DNA from: Deltaproteobacteria bacterium
GTDB taxonomy: Bacteria; Bdellovibrionota_B; Oligoflexia; Oligoflexales; Bog-1112
Reading direction: 5' to 3'
NCBI GenBank assembly: GCA_016186945.1
Contig: JACPKR010000004.1
Location: forward strand, 5,055 to 69,054
DNA length: 64,000 nt
The position numbers and the translations under genes are program-made. Every line of letters begins with the position of its first letter. Position 1 is the stretch's first letter. Shown here piece by piece: positions 9,319-54,552 of the stretch. The notes below the pieces were generated by a model. That model saw nothing but the letters and a program-made list of their open reading frames with translations, did not search any database and was not told the DNA's origin.

Positions 9319-9376
9319 AAGGAATTTCTTGGAGGAACCAGCTGCGCAGTTTCCTCCAAACCACCTCCTTGCCCCA
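9319..9376 (+). repeat. Family A repeat, right half (A2)
   Basis: Starts 3 bp after the ntrY stop. It contains the hairpin TTGGAGGAA-12 nt-TTTCCTCCAA and the CCACCTCCTTGCCCC right end. It fills most of the ntrY-ntrX gap and ends 25 bp before ntrX, so it will be transcribed in the ntrYX mRNA. Confidence 0.8.
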
Positions 9377-29726: not shown

Positions 29727-29746
29727 TTTGTGCCTTAAGCTGTTTG

Positions 29747-29920
29747 TGGCAAGGAGGTGGTTCGGAGGAAACTGGTTCCTCCAACGTAATTCAAGCAAAG
29801 TAAAACATTGGTTCGCTTTGTCAAGTATGGAACTAAAGTCCTGGGGGAGCGACCCTTCGCTTTGCTCAGGGCAGGCTTTTCCCTCGCCCCCCCAAACCCC
29901 CTCTCCCTTTTTGCCCCAAG
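29747..29920 (-). repeat. Two degraded family A repeat pieces (A3)
   Basis: 29747-29782 carries the GGAGGAA/TTCCTCC hairpin core. 29841-29920 carries the opposite arm (GGGGGAGCGAC, CCCTCGCCC, CCCTCTCCC, TTTTTGCCCCAAG) with about 20 bp inserted. Between them no gene is seen. The second piece ends 9 bp from the ftsY stop. Confidence 0.7.
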
Positions 29921-34227: not shown

Positions 34228-34321
34228 GTTGGAGACGTACCTTGGTTTTTAGATTGACTTAAACAGGATGCTTAGGGCATCAATGACAAACTGACGAACA
34301 GTTTCCGAGAACCTACATATA

Positions 34322-34488
34322 TATAGTATTTGGGAAAAAGAATTTGTGAAGAGGGCCTTTTTTGGAAAAAAGTTCCCCTCCACACCTCCCCCCAAAAAAC
34401 TTTAGATATTGAAGTTTTTGAAAAGGGGCTTGGGGATAGAACTTTTTTCAAAAAGTTTTTCCCCAAATTGATTATCTTGAATACTATA
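34322..34488 (+). repeat. Family B MITE-like element (B1), full length
   Basis: 167 bp bounded by perfect 9-bp terminal inverted repeats TATAGTATT...AATACTATA, AT-rich with internal short palindromes (CTTTTTTGGAAAAAAG-like) and C-rich blocks. It shares most of its length with the copy at 48611-48780. No coding capacity. It fills half of the 34228-34573 gap; the rest shows nothing recognisable apart from an AAGGAG ahead of the next gene. Confidence 0.8.
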
Positions 34489-36310: not shown

Positions 36311-36394
36311 TATAGTATTTGAGAAAAAGAATTTGTGGAGAGTACCTTTTTTGAAAAAAAGTTTTTCCCAAAATTGATTATCTTGAATACTATA
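36311..36394 (+). repeat. Family B element, internally deleted copy (B2)
   Basis: 84 bp with the same perfect TATAGTATT/AATACTATA ends as B1 but lacking its middle ~80 bp. It lies between the orn start and the DsbA-like gene. Confidence 0.82.
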
Positions 36395-40783: not shown

Positions 40784-40866
40784 AAGGATTTCTTGGAGGA
40801 ACCAGCTGCGCAGTTTCCTCCAAACCACCTCCTTGCAACAAGCGGGACCACCTCCTTGCCACAAGG
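40784..40866 (+). repeat. Family A repeat, right half with partial duplication (A4)
   Basis: Contains the GGAGGAA-CCAGCTGCGCAG-TTTCCTCC hairpin core and right end, with the ACCACCTCCTTG block twice. It lies between the TPR gene and the protease, directly upstream of the protease start. Confidence 0.8.
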
Positions 40867-43324: not shown

Positions 43325-43538
43325 TGCGTAAGCCACTTGGGGCAAGGAGGAGGGTTGGGGGGCGAGTGAAGCGTCGCCTCACCCAAGGAATTCAGGGAGG
43401 AGCCTCCACTGTCATCCCGCGGCTTGACTGCGGGACCCAAACGGCCGCCTCCCCCGAAAAAGTTGGATCCCGCGGTCAAGCCGCGGGATGACAGTAGTTT
43501 CCTCCCAACCACCTCCTTGCCCCAGTGGCTGACGCATT
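43323..43538 (+). repeat. Family A element with nested C palindrome (A5), with terminal inverted repeats
   Basis: 216 bp. The left end (43323-43350) and right end (43512-43538) are near-perfect inverted repeats of about 27 bp (AATGCGTxAGCCAC(T)TGGGGCAAGGAGG; one mismatch, one indel). Element C lies inside at 43408-43495. It supplies the protease stop codon on the left and ends 48 bp before the glycosyltransferase start. Confidence 0.85.
43408..43495 (+). repeat. Family C palindrome (C1)
   Basis: 88 bp: two 33-bp arms starting ACTGTCATCCCGCGG and ending CCGCGGGATGACAGT, inverted with 2 mismatches around a ~22-bp core. Each arm holds its own CCGCGG hairpin with loop CTTGA. Confidence 0.9.
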
Positions 43539-43585
43539 GCGTCAAGTTGATTTTCTTCTGTCCGATGACAGGAGAGGAGGAGACG

Positions 43586-45292
43586 ATGCCCAAGGATGGG
43601 AAAATTGCCGTTATTGTTGGAACCCTTGATATTCCCAGAATCTTGCTTACCCTTCAGCCACTTGCGAGCCGTTTTTCCCTGACTCTCTTTGTTTTGGAAG
43701 GTGCAAAAATACCCGACAGTATCAGCAAGTTTTGCGAGGTTAGGATTTACCAGCATGTGGAAGACATGCCAGGTTTTATGCGAGGCTTGGAGAAAGAGGC
43801 TGCCCATTATGACTTATTGCTGGGCTTGGAAGGAGCGCGTTTAAGCACTTATCAGGCTTTGCAACTCAGCAAGCGGTTTGCTAAGCCACTGGTCATATTT
43901 TCGAGTGAGACTAAACCTCTGAAGGACGAACAGTTTAAGAATGTCCAATCTTTGCAGAAAGACCTCTTCAAAAACACAGATCTTTTTCTCGTTCCTTGTC
44001 AAAAATCTAAGAACCACCTTCTCTTTCAAGGCGTTTCAGCGGATAGAATCGCCAATGTTCCCCTCCTGGTCGATAGGGAAAGGTTTAGTCCCCAGTCAGG
44101 TTCCAAGGGGAAGTTTCGACGCTATATCGGTGTGGGGGAAGATGATTTTGTGGTTCTCTTTTACGACGACCTAGAAGCTAACCCGGCACCTGAGGCTTTG
44201 CTCAGAAGCCTGGTTCTGATGCGACAAAAGAACGCAGACCTTGCTGCCCGTATCAAAGTGATTTTTGCAGGTTGTGGGGCGGACGAAAAAACCCTCAAGT
44301 ATATGGCTTACGACTGGGGGGTGGGCGATGCAGTGTATTTCATTCATCAGGAGATTGATGGGTTTTGCGAGGATGTCTTTCTGGCGAGTGACGCGCTGCT
44401 GTGTGCCCCAGGCCATGATAAAGATCGACTACCTCGGCTTCCTTTTGAAGTTTTGGAAGCTATGGCATGTGGGGTTATTCCTGTCGTCGTCCCTTCATCT
44501 TCAGTCAAGGACTTGGTGGGCGACTACGGAATGCTTGCCGATGATTTGTCCCCGACTTCTCTTGCTTTTGTATTATTTCAACTTGCTGGCGATCGCTCCT
44601 TTCTCCTGGAGAAACGCGAGGTCTTGAGACGAGCGAGCTTCCTGGGTGAAGGAGGTGAATGGGTTGATCGCATCGGCAAACTTCTGTCTGTACTAAAAAG
44701 AAGGGCGGGTGAGAATGACGAGAATGTTCGCAACTTCGTGGTGCAGATCCAAGGAGACCAGGTCAGTTCAATTCTCAAGCAGGCAGGCGTGGATGAGTTC
44801 ATGAAGGCCCATGAGCTGACAGATAAGCAGAGAGGTCTTCTCCTGAGAACGAAAGCAGACATCTTGCACCAGAACGGTGAGCTGGAAGAAGCTATAGGTG
44901 CCTTTGAGTCAGCCATAATATGTGATGAAAAAAATGTAGATGCCTATGTCGGGCTAGGAACAATTGCATTGAGCAGTTTTGCCCAGGAGGAAGCTGTCAC
45001 CTTCTTCCGTAAGGCTATCTCTTTTGACCCCGGAAATGCGAAGGCCGCTCTTGGTCTTGGATTGGTGTTCTTTCGTGCTGGCCTCGCCTCTGACTCGCTC
45101 TATTGGCTTGAACGTAGCCTGCTGAGTGGAGTGGCCAACTCCACGCTTCCTCTCAACACGATTTCACGAATATGCCGGGAGGCGAAAGATATCGAGTGGG
45201 CCTTAGGAGCACTGGAGAAGATTATCGAGAATGTTGGGGAACAGGACTTGCTGATGCATAGCCTTCGAGATCTTCGTTTACGAAACGGTTGA
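43586..45292 (+). CDS. GT-B glycosyltransferase (group 1) with C-terminal TPR
   Basis: 568 residues. ATG 43586 follows GGAGAGGAGG; a longer frame to 43424 would translate repeat sequence. A GT4-like two-Rossmann domain (about 5-380) contains 'EVLEAMACGVIPVVVPSSS', the nucleotide-sugar-binding region. A C-terminal TPR part (about 430-560) has 'AIGAFESAIICDEKNVDAYV' units. Sugar and acceptor unknown. The gene is flanked by inverted A+C repeats and overlaps the end of dut by 71 bp. Confidence 0.8.
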   Translation: MPKDGKIAVIVGTLDIPRILLTLQPLASRFSLTLFVLEGAKIPDSISKFCEVRIYQHVEDMPGFMRGLEKEAAHYDLLLGLEGARLSTYQALQLSKRFAKPLVIFSSETKPLKDEQFKNVQSLQKDLFKNTDLFLVPCQKSKNHLLFQGVSADRIANVPLLVDRERFSPQSGSKGKFRRYIGVGEDDFVVLFYDDLEANPAPEALLRSLVLMRQKNADLAARIKVIFAGCGADEKTLKYMAYDWGVGDAVYFIHQEIDGFCEDVFLASDALLCAPGHDKDRLPRLPFEVLEAMACGVIPVVVPSSSVKDLVGDYGMLADDLSPTSLAFVLFQLAGDRSFLLEKREVLRRASFLGEGGEWVDRIGKLLSVLKRRAGENDENVRNFVVQIQGDQVSSILKQAGVDEFMKAHELTDKQRGLLLRTKADILHQNGELEEAIGAFESAIICDEKNVDAYVGLGTIALSSFAQEEAVTFFRKAISFDPGNAKAALGLGLVFFRAGLASDSLYWLERSLLSGVANSTLPLNTISRICREAKDIEWALGALEKIIENVGEQDLLMHSLRDLRLRNG

Positions 45293-45923
45293 GGCAAGGA
45301 GGCGGTTTGGAGGAAACTGCGCAGCTGGTTCCTCCACTGTCATCCCGCGGCTTGACCGCGGGATCCAACTTTTTCGGGGGAGGCGGCCGTTGGATCCCGC
45401 GGTCAAGCCGCGGGATGACAGTGGAGGCTCCTCCCTGAATTCCGGGGGAGGCGACGCTTCCCTCGCCCTCCCCAAAAACCTCCCTCTCCCTTTTCGCCCT
45501 GCCGGTGGAACCAAATCCACCCATTCTCTTACCCAGACAGACCAAGTGTGGCAAGCGATAGCTCAACCCCAAGACGAGTTGGGCGATTCTGTCACCTGCC
45601 TTAACTTCGTAGGGTTTCGTGGAGACGTTCCACAATAAGACTTCAAATTCATCAGGAAAGTCGGCGTCCACTGTTCCTACTGCATTGGCAAGAGTGATGC
45701 CGTGTTTGAACGCCAAGCCGGAACGAGCGCGGACTTGAATTTCGGGAACGGCTCCTGCGGGAACGTTTTCCCAGTCCACGCGGTCAATCCACACACCTGT
45801 GGGAACTTTCACAACCGCTCCCGGGGGAATGCTTGTCGTCACTCTTGCCTTGAGGTCTGCACCGGCACTGAGTTCGGTCTGATAAGCCGGTTCGCAATCA
45901 GCTTGCCATCTAAGAATGATCAT
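45222..45923 (-). CDS. dut: dUTP diphosphatase with repeat-derived C-terminal extension
   Basis: Hydrolyses dUTP to dUMP, keeping uracil out of DNA. The catalytic fold fills residues 1-141: motif I SAGADLKA, motif III with RSGLAFKHGITLANAVGTVDADF-like residues (about 68-90), motif IV AGDRIAQLVL, and motif V GGFGSTG at 135-141. Dut proteins normally end here. Residues 142-233 come from family A and C repeats (signature VIPRLDRGIQ) and finally antisense of the glycosyltransferase. Third gene of rpsO-pnp-dut; the ATG lies 10 bp past the pnp stop. Confidence 0.9.
   Translation of the reverse strand: MIILRWQADCEPAYQTELSAGADLKARVTTSIPPGAVVKVPTGVWIDRVDWENVPAGAVPEIQVRARSGLAFKHGITLANAVGTVDADFPDEFEVLLWNVSTKPYEVKAGDRIAQLVLGLSYRLPHLVCLGKRMGGFGSTGRAKREREVFGEGEGSVASPGIQGGASTVIPRLDRGIQRPPPPKKLDPAVKPRDDSGGTSCAVSSKPPPCLNRFVNEDLEGYASASPVPQHSR
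45288..45502 (-). repeat. Family A element with nested C palindrome (A6), inverted copy
   Basis: Minus-strand copy of A5, about 190 bp nearly identical to it, starting at the glycosyltransferase stop codon and ending inside dut. With A5 it brackets the glycosyltransferase gene as an inverted pair. Confidence 0.85.
45336..45422 (-). repeat. Family C palindrome (C2)
   Basis: 87 bp with two perfect 33-bp inverted arms (45336-45368 and 45390-45422). The central ~21 bp runs opposite to that of C1, so the two are inverted copies. It is read through by dut. Confidence 0.92.
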
Positions 45924-45933
45924 CGGCGTGGGG

Positions 45934-48030
45934 CTATGAAAATGTGGGTTTCATACCGAAGGCATCCCGTCGGGAGAGTTTAATTCTTCCCTGACGGTCG
46001 ATGTCGATGACTTTCACTAACACTTCATCTCCGAGTTTTACCGCGTCTTCGATGCTTTCGATCCTTTTATCATCCATGTGTGATATGTGGCACAAACCGT
46101 CAACTCCGGGACGCAGCTCAATAAAGGCTCCGAAGTCTACGACGCGGACCACTCGTCCCAGGTAAACTTCCCCGACTTGTGGGGTTGTTGTATAGGCACG
46201 GATGAGGGTTTTAGCAGCTTGAGCGGATAACGAGTCGGGCGCGACGATCGTGACCACACCGTTATCGCCGATATCCATTTTAACACCAGCTTCAGAGCTG
46301 ATTTTCTTGATGTTCTTTCCTCCTGGTCCGATCAAGTCTTTGATTTTGTCGGAACCGATCTTCAGTTTGAACATGCGGGGTGCAAGGGAGCTTAGGTCTT
46401 GCGGTTCGGCGATTGCTTCAGCCATTTTGCCGAGGATGTGCAAGCGGCCTTCGCGTGCCTGTTCCAGAGCCTGCATCATGAGTTCAGGCGAAATGCCGCC
46501 TATCTTGATGTCCATTTGCAGTGCTGTGATTCCTTTTTTTGTACCGCAGACTTTGAAGTCCATGTCGCCCACGTGATCTTCATCACCTAGGATGTCGGAC
46601 AGGATAGCGCTTTGTTCGCCTTCCTTAACGAGTCCCATGGCGATACCTGCCACAGAGTCTTTGAGAGGGACCCCTGCTTTCAGAAGGGCCATCGTTCCTG
46701 CGCAGACGGTTGCCATGGAGGAGCTTCCGTTGGACTCCAGAATTTCAGAAACCAGCCGGATCGTGTAAGCAAAATCGTTCTCACTAGGCACCATAGGATA
46801 AAGTGCGCGACGTGCAAGGCTTCCGTGACCGATTTCGCGACGGCTCGGGGTCCTCTGCATGCGAGCTTCCCCTACACTAAAGGGAGGGAAGTTGTAGTGC
46901 AGCATGAATCGGTCCTTGATTTCCGTGTCCCAGAGCGATTCCAGACGTTGTTGATCCTCGGCCGCAGCGAGAGTGACGGAAGCAAGAGCTTGTGTCTCAC
47001 CCCTTGTAAAGAGGGAAGAACCGTGTGGTCGTGAAAGAATACCCGTCTCGCACTTGATGGGTCGTATCTGCGCCAGACCCCTTCCGTCGATGCGTCGCTT
47101 GTCCCTGAGTATCATTGTGCGCATGAGTTCTGAACGCAGCTTGCCAGCAAGCTGACTGATGGCTTGTTCTCGTGCAGAGTCGTTCTCAGGGTTCAACTGG
47201 GTGATCGCGTCTTGTGTGACTTTGCTGATAGCCTTGCTGCGCTCCTGCTTATCGGAAATCCCGAGAGCATCGTTCAGCGGGCCTTGAATGAGTTCCCTGA
47301 CCTTTGTCTGAAGTTCTGTATCGGTTTGCATTTCGGGAACCGACATTTTTGCCTTGCCAATCTCCTGCTGTATTTTTTTCTGGAATTCGAAGAAGGGCCG
47401 CATTTCATTGTGTGCAAACTGAATGGCGTCCAGCATTTCCTTTTCTGAAGCTTCGTTAGCACCCGCTTCCACCATCAAGACAGCATCGGGGCTGCAAGCG
47501 ACTGTGAGGAAGAGGTCTCCCTCACCTGCCTCGCCTTCAAGAGGATCGACCATAAGTTGACCCTCTTTGCGACCAATGTTTAAGGCAGCAACTGGGCCTG
47601 CGAAAGGAATATCACTGATCATCAGAGCGGTACTGGCACCGACAAGAGCCAAGGGGCCAGGGTTATGCCCGTGCTCATAAGAAAGGACAGTCGCTGTGAT
47701 GACAGTCTCGTTTTTGAATGCTTTGGGAAAGAGAGGGCGTAAAGGCCGGTCGATCAAACGAGCCGTCAAGGCTGCTTTGTCGGAAGGCTTTCCCTCGCGT
47801 TTGAAATAGCCACCGGGCACTCGGCCCGCAGCATAGGTTTTTTCAATATAGTCGACACCGAGGGGGAAAAAGTCCAGGCCAGGGGAAGCTTTGTCTGCGG
47901 CGCATACGGTGACAAGAACCTGGGTGTCACCTGAGCTGACCATGACGGAGCCGTTTGCCTGGCGTGCGAATTTCTGAAACTCGAACTTAATGGTTCGACC
48001 GTTGATATTAACTTCGTGTGAAATAGACAT
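45934..48030 (-). CDS. pnp: Polynucleotide phosphorylase
   Basis: 3'-5' phosphorolytic exoribonuclease and degradosome enzyme. 698 residues from ATG 48030 (AAGGA upstream); a longer frame to 48081 is rejected. Two RNase PH domains, a KH domain (about 550-610, 'DLIGPGGKNIKKISSEAG') and an S1 domain ending in 'GRIKLSRRDAFGM'. It follows rpsO, as in many bacteria. Confidence 0.97.
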   Translation of the reverse strand: MSISHEVNINGRTIKFEFQKFARQANGSVMVSSGDTQVLVTVCAADKASPGLDFFPLGVDYIEKTYAAGRVPGGYFKREGKPSDKAALTARLIDRPLRPLFPKAFKNETVITATVLSYEHGHNPGPLALVGASTALMISDIPFAGPVAALNIGRKEGQLMVDPLEGEAGEGDLFLTVACSPDAVLMVEAGANEASEKEMLDAIQFAHNEMRPFFEFQKKIQQEIGKAKMSVPEMQTDTELQTKVRELIQGPLNDALGISDKQERSKAISKVTQDAITQLNPENDSAREQAISQLAGKLRSELMRTMILRDKRRIDGRGLAQIRPIKCETGILSRPHGSSLFTRGETQALASVTLAAAEDQQRLESLWDTEIKDRFMLHYNFPPFSVGEARMQRTPSRREIGHGSLARRALYPMVPSENDFAYTIRLVSEILESNGSSSMATVCAGTMALLKAGVPLKDSVAGIAMGLVKEGEQSAILSDILGDEDHVGDMDFKVCGTKKGITALQMDIKIGGISPELMMQALEQAREGRLHILGKMAEAIAEPQDLSSLAPRMFKLKIGSDKIKDLIGPGGKNIKKISSEAGVKMDIGDNGVVTIVAPDSLSAQAAKTLIRAYTTTPQVGEVYLGRVVRVVDFGAFIELRPGVDGLCHISHMDDKRIESIEDAVKLGDEVLVKVIDIDRQGRIKLSRRDAFGMKPTFS

Positions 48031-48140
48031 GATTTTTTTTTCCTTTAAGGGTGACAGTAAGAATTTTCGAACTCTCAGCACCCGGTATTAAGGGGGGTAA
48101 GGCTTAGTTGATCTTAACATAAGAGCCGGCGAAGACTACT

Positions 48141-48610: not shown

Positions 48611-48780
48611 TATGTAGTATTCAGGATAATCAATTTGGGGAAAAACTTTTTGAAAAAAGTTGTTTCCCCAAGCCCCTTTTTAAAAACTTCAATATTTAAA
48701 GTTTTTTGGGGGGAGGCGTGGAGGGGAACTTTTTTTCAAAAAAGGTCCTCTCCACAAGTTCTATTTCTCAAAGACTAATT
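48611..48780 (-). repeat. Family B MITE-like element (B3)
   Basis: About 170 bp, the reverse complement of B1 over nearly all its length, with degraded ends (TGTAGTATTC / AAGACTAAT). It separates rpsO (minus) from the reductase gene (plus) and ends 15 bp before that gene's start, so it may carry part of its leader. Confidence 0.8.
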
Positions 48781-48794
48781 AAAGGAAGGGCTTC

Positions 48795-54460: not shown

Positions 54461-54552
54461 CTTTTGGGAAAAAGAATTTGTGGAGAGGACCTTTTTTGAA
54501 AAAAAGTTCCCCTCCACGCCTCCCCCCAAAAAACTTTAATTGATTATCCTGG
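54461..54552 (+). repeat. Family B element, truncated copy (B4)
   Basis: About 92 bp matching the left two-thirds of B1 (GGGAAAAAGAATTTGTGGAG then CCTTTTTTGAAAAAAAGTTC and CCTCCCCCCAAAAAACTTTA) joined to the right end TTGATTATCCTGG. Terminal inverted repeats are degraded. It sits between flgJ and flgM inside the flagellar operon and ends 15 bp before the flgM start. Confidence 0.78.

Follow-up and report, generated by a model that had tools for sequence, protein, structure and literature searches.

The window, i.e. the whole 64,000-nt stretch of DNA that was analysed, belongs to a 2.66-Mb metagenome assembly of 76 contigs and 91% completeness, the only genome of its species examined. It contains a dUTPase gene (dut) and a convergent glycosyltransferase/TPR ORF (GT), which meet in repeat sequence:

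45934-48081, minus strand: pnp gene, upstream of dut, which fixes the gene order with relatives
45222-45923, minus strand: dut ORF, ATG start, 233 aa
45501-45923, minus strand: dut core, a complete trimeric dUTPase with motifs I-V (profile matches, alignment, AlphaFold2)
45225-45500, minus strand: dut C-terminal tail, 92 aa, coded by repeat and antisense GT sequence
45222-45224, minus strand: present dut stop TAA, within the GT gene
43424-45292, plus strand: convergent GT ORF, likely start ATG at 43565 or 43586
45290-45292, plus strand: GT stop TGA, formed from element sequence
45428-45500, minus strand: left part of a MITE-1-like element, which begins where the GGFGSTG codons end and lacks its outer terminal repeat
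45337-45427, no strand: nested palindromic element P, 91 bp
45287-45336, minus strand: right part of the MITE-1-like element, supplying the GT stop, outer terminal repeat missing
about 43331-43540, no strand: second composite, upstream of GT, with P nested in a MITE-1 that retains both ends, in the opposite orientation to the composite in dut

The dut/GT junction

The dut core carries motifs I-V as SAGADL, RSGLAFKHGI, TVDADFPDE, GDRIAQ and GGFGSTG, the last of which ends the core at residue 141 (45501). It matched the Pfam dUTPase family (PF00692, E 2.3e-14), NCBIfam TIGR00576 (dUTP diphosphatase) over the full family length (residues 8-142, 103.1 bits with a cut-off of 102.55), and solved dUTPases in phmmer searches. 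In an alignment with 16 relatives all five motifs, including the C-terminal GGFGS, were present and their key residues fell in invariant columns. A genome search for dUTPases of the trimeric type returned the dut of the window as its only match.

The frame continues past GGFGSTG for 92 aa and terminates inside the convergent GT gene, with an overlap of 71 bp between the two ORFs, which agrees with the extension placed at 45222-45500 by a first-pass annotation of this DNA. The codon-usage score was 0.16 in the core versus 0.00 in the part of the tail behind the element, and no coding signature was found in the codon usage of the tail. An AlphaFold2 model of dut, with an input alignment of 17 sequences, had pLDDT values >90 for most of the core and <50 for most of the tail, without secondary structure predicted after residue 122, and the roughly 90 aa of the tail are thus predicted to be unstructured. 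The region of motif V also had low pLDDT, as expected for what is a mobile arm in dUTPases (PMC3905902, PMC12524310).

The relatives used for comparison were Oligoflexales MAGs, which suggest the same placement for this genome, and the convergent GT-dut order of the window recurs in relatives. Their dut genes end 1-17 residues after motif V, and a 92-aa tail was not found in any of those compared. In G001, a member of the same genus, the dut and GT stops are about 7 bp apart without a repeat (the last dut codons contain NN, so that the exact dut stop is inferred), and in G012, with the same gene order, the stops are 6 bp apart, again without a repeat. The dut ends of the relatives, the repeat-free junctions of G001 and G012 and the longer GT orthologues (below) together indicate that the junction in the window has lost the dut stop, the spacer and about 18 GT codons. 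The first-pass annotation had proposed both the loss of the original dut stop and the comparison with a relative lacking the insertion, and that comparison bears the proposal out.

The change to the neighbouring gene had not been part of that proposal. The GT is truncated at the same insert, with a C-terminus about 18 aa shorter than in most orthologues, most of which run about 15-25 aa beyond the point where the GT of the window meets the element, with one more distant protein as exception. The GT stop TGA falls in TTGAGGCAAGG, for which the counterpart in the MITE-1 family is TTGGGGCAAGG. Compared with the orthologues, the GT residues lost apparently correspond to the second helix of the last TPR. 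It is one and the same insert, as read from the sequence, that changed the predicted C-termini of both dut and GT.

The insert and its repeat families

The insert (45287-45500) is a nested pair of repeats, with a MITE-1-like element outside and the palindrome P inside. The inverted arms of P span 45331-45427 and are 39 bp long and perfectly complementary. We searched the dut copy of MITE-1 for complete terminal inverted repeats and a target duplication, and both were absent; its MITE-1 part has 73% identity to the consensus with the flanks counted and looks diverged. By its letters, this MITE-1-like copy has been eroded or has changed secondarily. The dut composite and the second composite at 43331-43540 have 56 identical bases in common, which makes exchange between the two composites possible.

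Intact MITE-1 is short and non-coding, measures 143-144 bp and carries terminal inverted repeats of 25 bp (GTAATGCGTAAGCCACTTGGGGCAA). There are about 100 copies in the genome, with 221 terminal-repeat matches in the 2.66 Mb. Target duplications of 8-9 bp with no more than one mismatch flank 9/23 intact copies, and flanks paired at random never agreed over 8 bp with 0-1 mismatch, which indicates that the MITE-1 family has transposed. A core of ~48 bp (TTGGAGGAACCAGCTGCGCAGTTTCCTCCAAACCACCTCCTTG) within MITE-1 also stands alone, and is found in the window at 45287-45336, 9330-9376, 40794-40864 and 29741-29774, as well as in G005 and G007, which represent two other genera of the family and each hold about 40 or more such places. 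This distribution suggests that the core is an older REP-like repeat that was captured by MITE-1.

The 27-bp half-site of P gave four matches in the window, with none expected from shuffled sequence, and 151 in this genome, thus supporting the earlier reading of a repeat insertion. A search of 57 other genomes of the phylum gave no match to the half-site, P was confined to this genome among 56 searched, and a search of plasmids for P gave no match. The half-sites occur as singles, tandem runs and inverted pairs, a pattern resembling that of REP/BIME sequences; short tandem runs with a period of about 40-50 bp were seen at G000 C6:118785-118931, C24:41327-41456, C5:27742-27966 and C3:7496-7662. 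Elsewhere in the genome P mostly sits within another, A+T-rich repeat. The window also holds an A+T-rich repeat of ~175 bp without P (34312-34486, 48615-48789, 36313-36392 and 54463-54539), which is related to this usual host of P. Scanned against Rfam with gathering scores as threshold, the window gave tRNAs only, and no known repeat or RNA family.

Two possible roles or partners of P were considered and are not claimed here. The genome has four Y1_Tnp matches, the two best of which resemble short IS200/IS605 TnpA proteins beside TnpB-like frames and are not clear RAYTs, and a RAYT is therefore not put forward as mobiliser of P. These two TnpA genes are located at G000 C40:48968-49324 (L144) and C40:39015-39323 (L145), and the second of them is broken and has inverted copies of P on either side. 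As for a role as simple bidirectional terminator, a terminator-like pattern is present in P, but the total of such patterns in the region was 8, with 7.2 expected by chance.

Other proteins with element-coded ends

We surveyed 451 kb of genome stretches with 169 element places, which were chosen for holding elements, so that the numbers do not represent genome-wide rates. Besides dut, this sample holds at least six proteins with recognised domains whose last residues are coded by elements:

L106:7406-8332, minus strand: Maf nucleotide pyrophosphatase, about 100 extra residues
L120:14225-15142, minus strand: UbiG-like methyltransferase, about 60 element-coded residues
L109:1898-3148, minus strand: DnaJ, about 50 element-coded residues
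L122:5195-7009, plus strand: ABC exporter, about 20 element-coded residues
L113:4098-5375, minus strand: Kdo transferase, shorter element-coded end
L112:3621-4058, minus strand: Hsp20 protein, shorter element-coded end

The tails of the Maf and UbiG-like proteins derive from MITE-1 without the P hairpin. Repeat-driven remodelling of C-termini thus looks common in this genome. Many long ORFs also have repeat sequence at the N-terminus, and in L107:2505-4211 and L108:6310-8133 on the plus strand, and L104:4959-6374 and L111:6403-7797 on the minus strand, the first 50-115 residues are largely repeat. We set these N-terminal extensions aside, as frames were called from the earliest codon that could serve as a start; the true starts of these ORFs are probably further downstream, and automatic calling would probably place them too far upstream.

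Origin and fate of the dut tail

We consider the dut tail to be selfish DNA fused to the C-terminus at the dut/GT junction, tolerated and probably neutral (probability about 0.75). In the ancestor the two convergent genes would have had their stops within a few bases of each other, and a MITE-1-like element would have entered this junction. The dut stop, the short spacer and the last 18 or so GT codons were lost, with this insertion or later, and the 91-bp P would have become nested in the element, an order of steps and an accompanying deletion that we infer. In the present sequence the dut frame runs through the element, for 92 residues in all, up to a chance TAA in the GT antisense sequence, and GT terminates at the TGA supplied by the end of the element. 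The dUTPase would then be made with its tail, which is predicted to trail in disordered form behind the mobile motif V arm, and most likely would be tolerated without a function, because the end of the dUTPase is a mobile surface arm.

Such a frame can arise by itself. P is open in 4/6 frames and the whole dut composite in 3/6, with 2/3 frames open for the dut insert in its present orientation, and since the insert is open in half its frames, read-through requires no selection. The open frame has been kept despite the divergence of the MITE-1 part, which could hint at constraint, but a composition-matched shuffle of the dut tail remains open 5% of the time, and the elements themselves do so more often.

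As the main rival reading, the tail might be removed, either by cleavage of the hairpin by RNase III, giving a non-stop message and trans-translation, or by trimming by proteases, which would leave an enzyme of near-normal length. The 39-bp perfect hairpin lies in the dut coding strand, where the RNA fold of 45286-45520 reaches -148 kcal/mol (z -9.6), the sole in-frame dut stop is located beyond it, the tail is predicted to be disordered, and a like idea has been put forward for the QMITE2-extended EnhC of Coxiella (PMC5896051). Tagged non-stop products are normally degraded, however, so that dUTPase would drop, and the Maf and UbiG-like tails have no P hairpin to cut; we therefore regard removal as unlikely. 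A more elaborate version, in which a genome-wide wave of palindromes remodels housekeeping C-termini and the 39-bp hairpin before the only dut stop acts as a post-transcriptional switch (via RNase III and non-stop message) setting the dUTPase level, is a highly speculative one to which we give little credence. Recruitment of the tail for interaction, localisation or regulation of the dUTPase has a precedent of a kind in Mycobacterium smegmatis, where motif VI of the dUTPase, five residues long, is needed in vivo and dispensable for catalysis (PMC12524310), and the frame is long and open. The lack of both a codon signal and predicted structure, the default openness of element frames, the similar tails on unrelated proteins and the absence of the tail from all relatives compared make such a function very improbable.

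A misjoin at a high-copy repeat or a mis-resolved palindrome, with a stop at the real junction, was weighed as well, since the assembly consists of many contigs, several of which end in P copies (C7, C46, C54, C56 and C75), and a perfect palindrome like P is difficult for short reads. We consider this improbable, as pnp-dut and GT are conserved neighbours whose order is kept in other genera, the MITE-1 part starts right after the motif V codons and its opposite end is where the GT end meets it, and paired reads can bridge elements as short as these (91-144 bp). Finally, the alteration of both flanking C-termini could be read as decay of a dut gene whose function is covered by another enzyme, but this is scarcely credible for a gene with five intact motifs and coding codon usage in its core, directly behind pnp as in the relatives, and without a second match in a genome search limited to the trimeric family, to which the dimeric dUTPases are unrelated.

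Tolerance is thus the best supported of the three fates (tolerated, removed or useful) that the first-pass annotation had left side by side, being consistent with the open frames, the absence of codon signal and structure, and the similar ends of other genes, while usefulness remains without support. A core enzyme of the nucleotide pool apparently tolerates an addition of 92 residues after its catalytic arm, and abundant small mobile repeats changed both proteins at a tight convergent junction, in an order with few cultured members. For annotation, such tails, and many of the apparent N-terminal extensions here, should be taken as repeat sequence and not as domains.

Similar events have been described in other bacteria. 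In the Erwinia carotovora amidase ECA3499, an RU-1/ERIC repeat at the 3′ end took away the usual stop, and the protein now continues past its conserved domain into a C-terminus coded by the repeat (PMC2759123), as in dut the work of a short mobile repeat; it differs from dut in its element family, in a tail of about 35 aa and in having no nested palindrome, and no altered convergent neighbour is described for it. The last 33 residues of EnhC in Coxiella burnetii Dugway come from a 3′ QMITE2 with a strong mRNA stem, and other genes also overlap MITEs at their 3′ ends (PMC5896051). The dut case resembles it in the C-terminus coded by a 3′ MITE, the strong stem and the further genes affected, and differs in having another element, two nested families and a single-copy housekeeping enzyme. 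The palindromic elements of Rickettsia (RPE, ~100-150 bp) have open frames and lie in-frame in conserved proteins, and the one in gmk was described as neutral or slightly detrimental (PMC2229807, PMC10969869). Compared by description, RPEs are like P palindromic repeats whose open frames end up in-frame in conserved proteins, but they are described as inserts within genes, whereas dut represents read-through at the terminus, in whichever frame is open. Working dUTPases with additional residues behind motif V are known from the C-terminal extension of the Drosophila trimeric enzyme (PMC5794464) and from the mycobacterial motif VI (PMC12524310); these are lineage-specific parts of the protein, whereas the dut tail derives from repeats and was seen in a single genome. 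The dut case is therefore a clean but ordinary instance of a kind already described in other bacteria, with the nested insert and the altered neighbour as its particulars.
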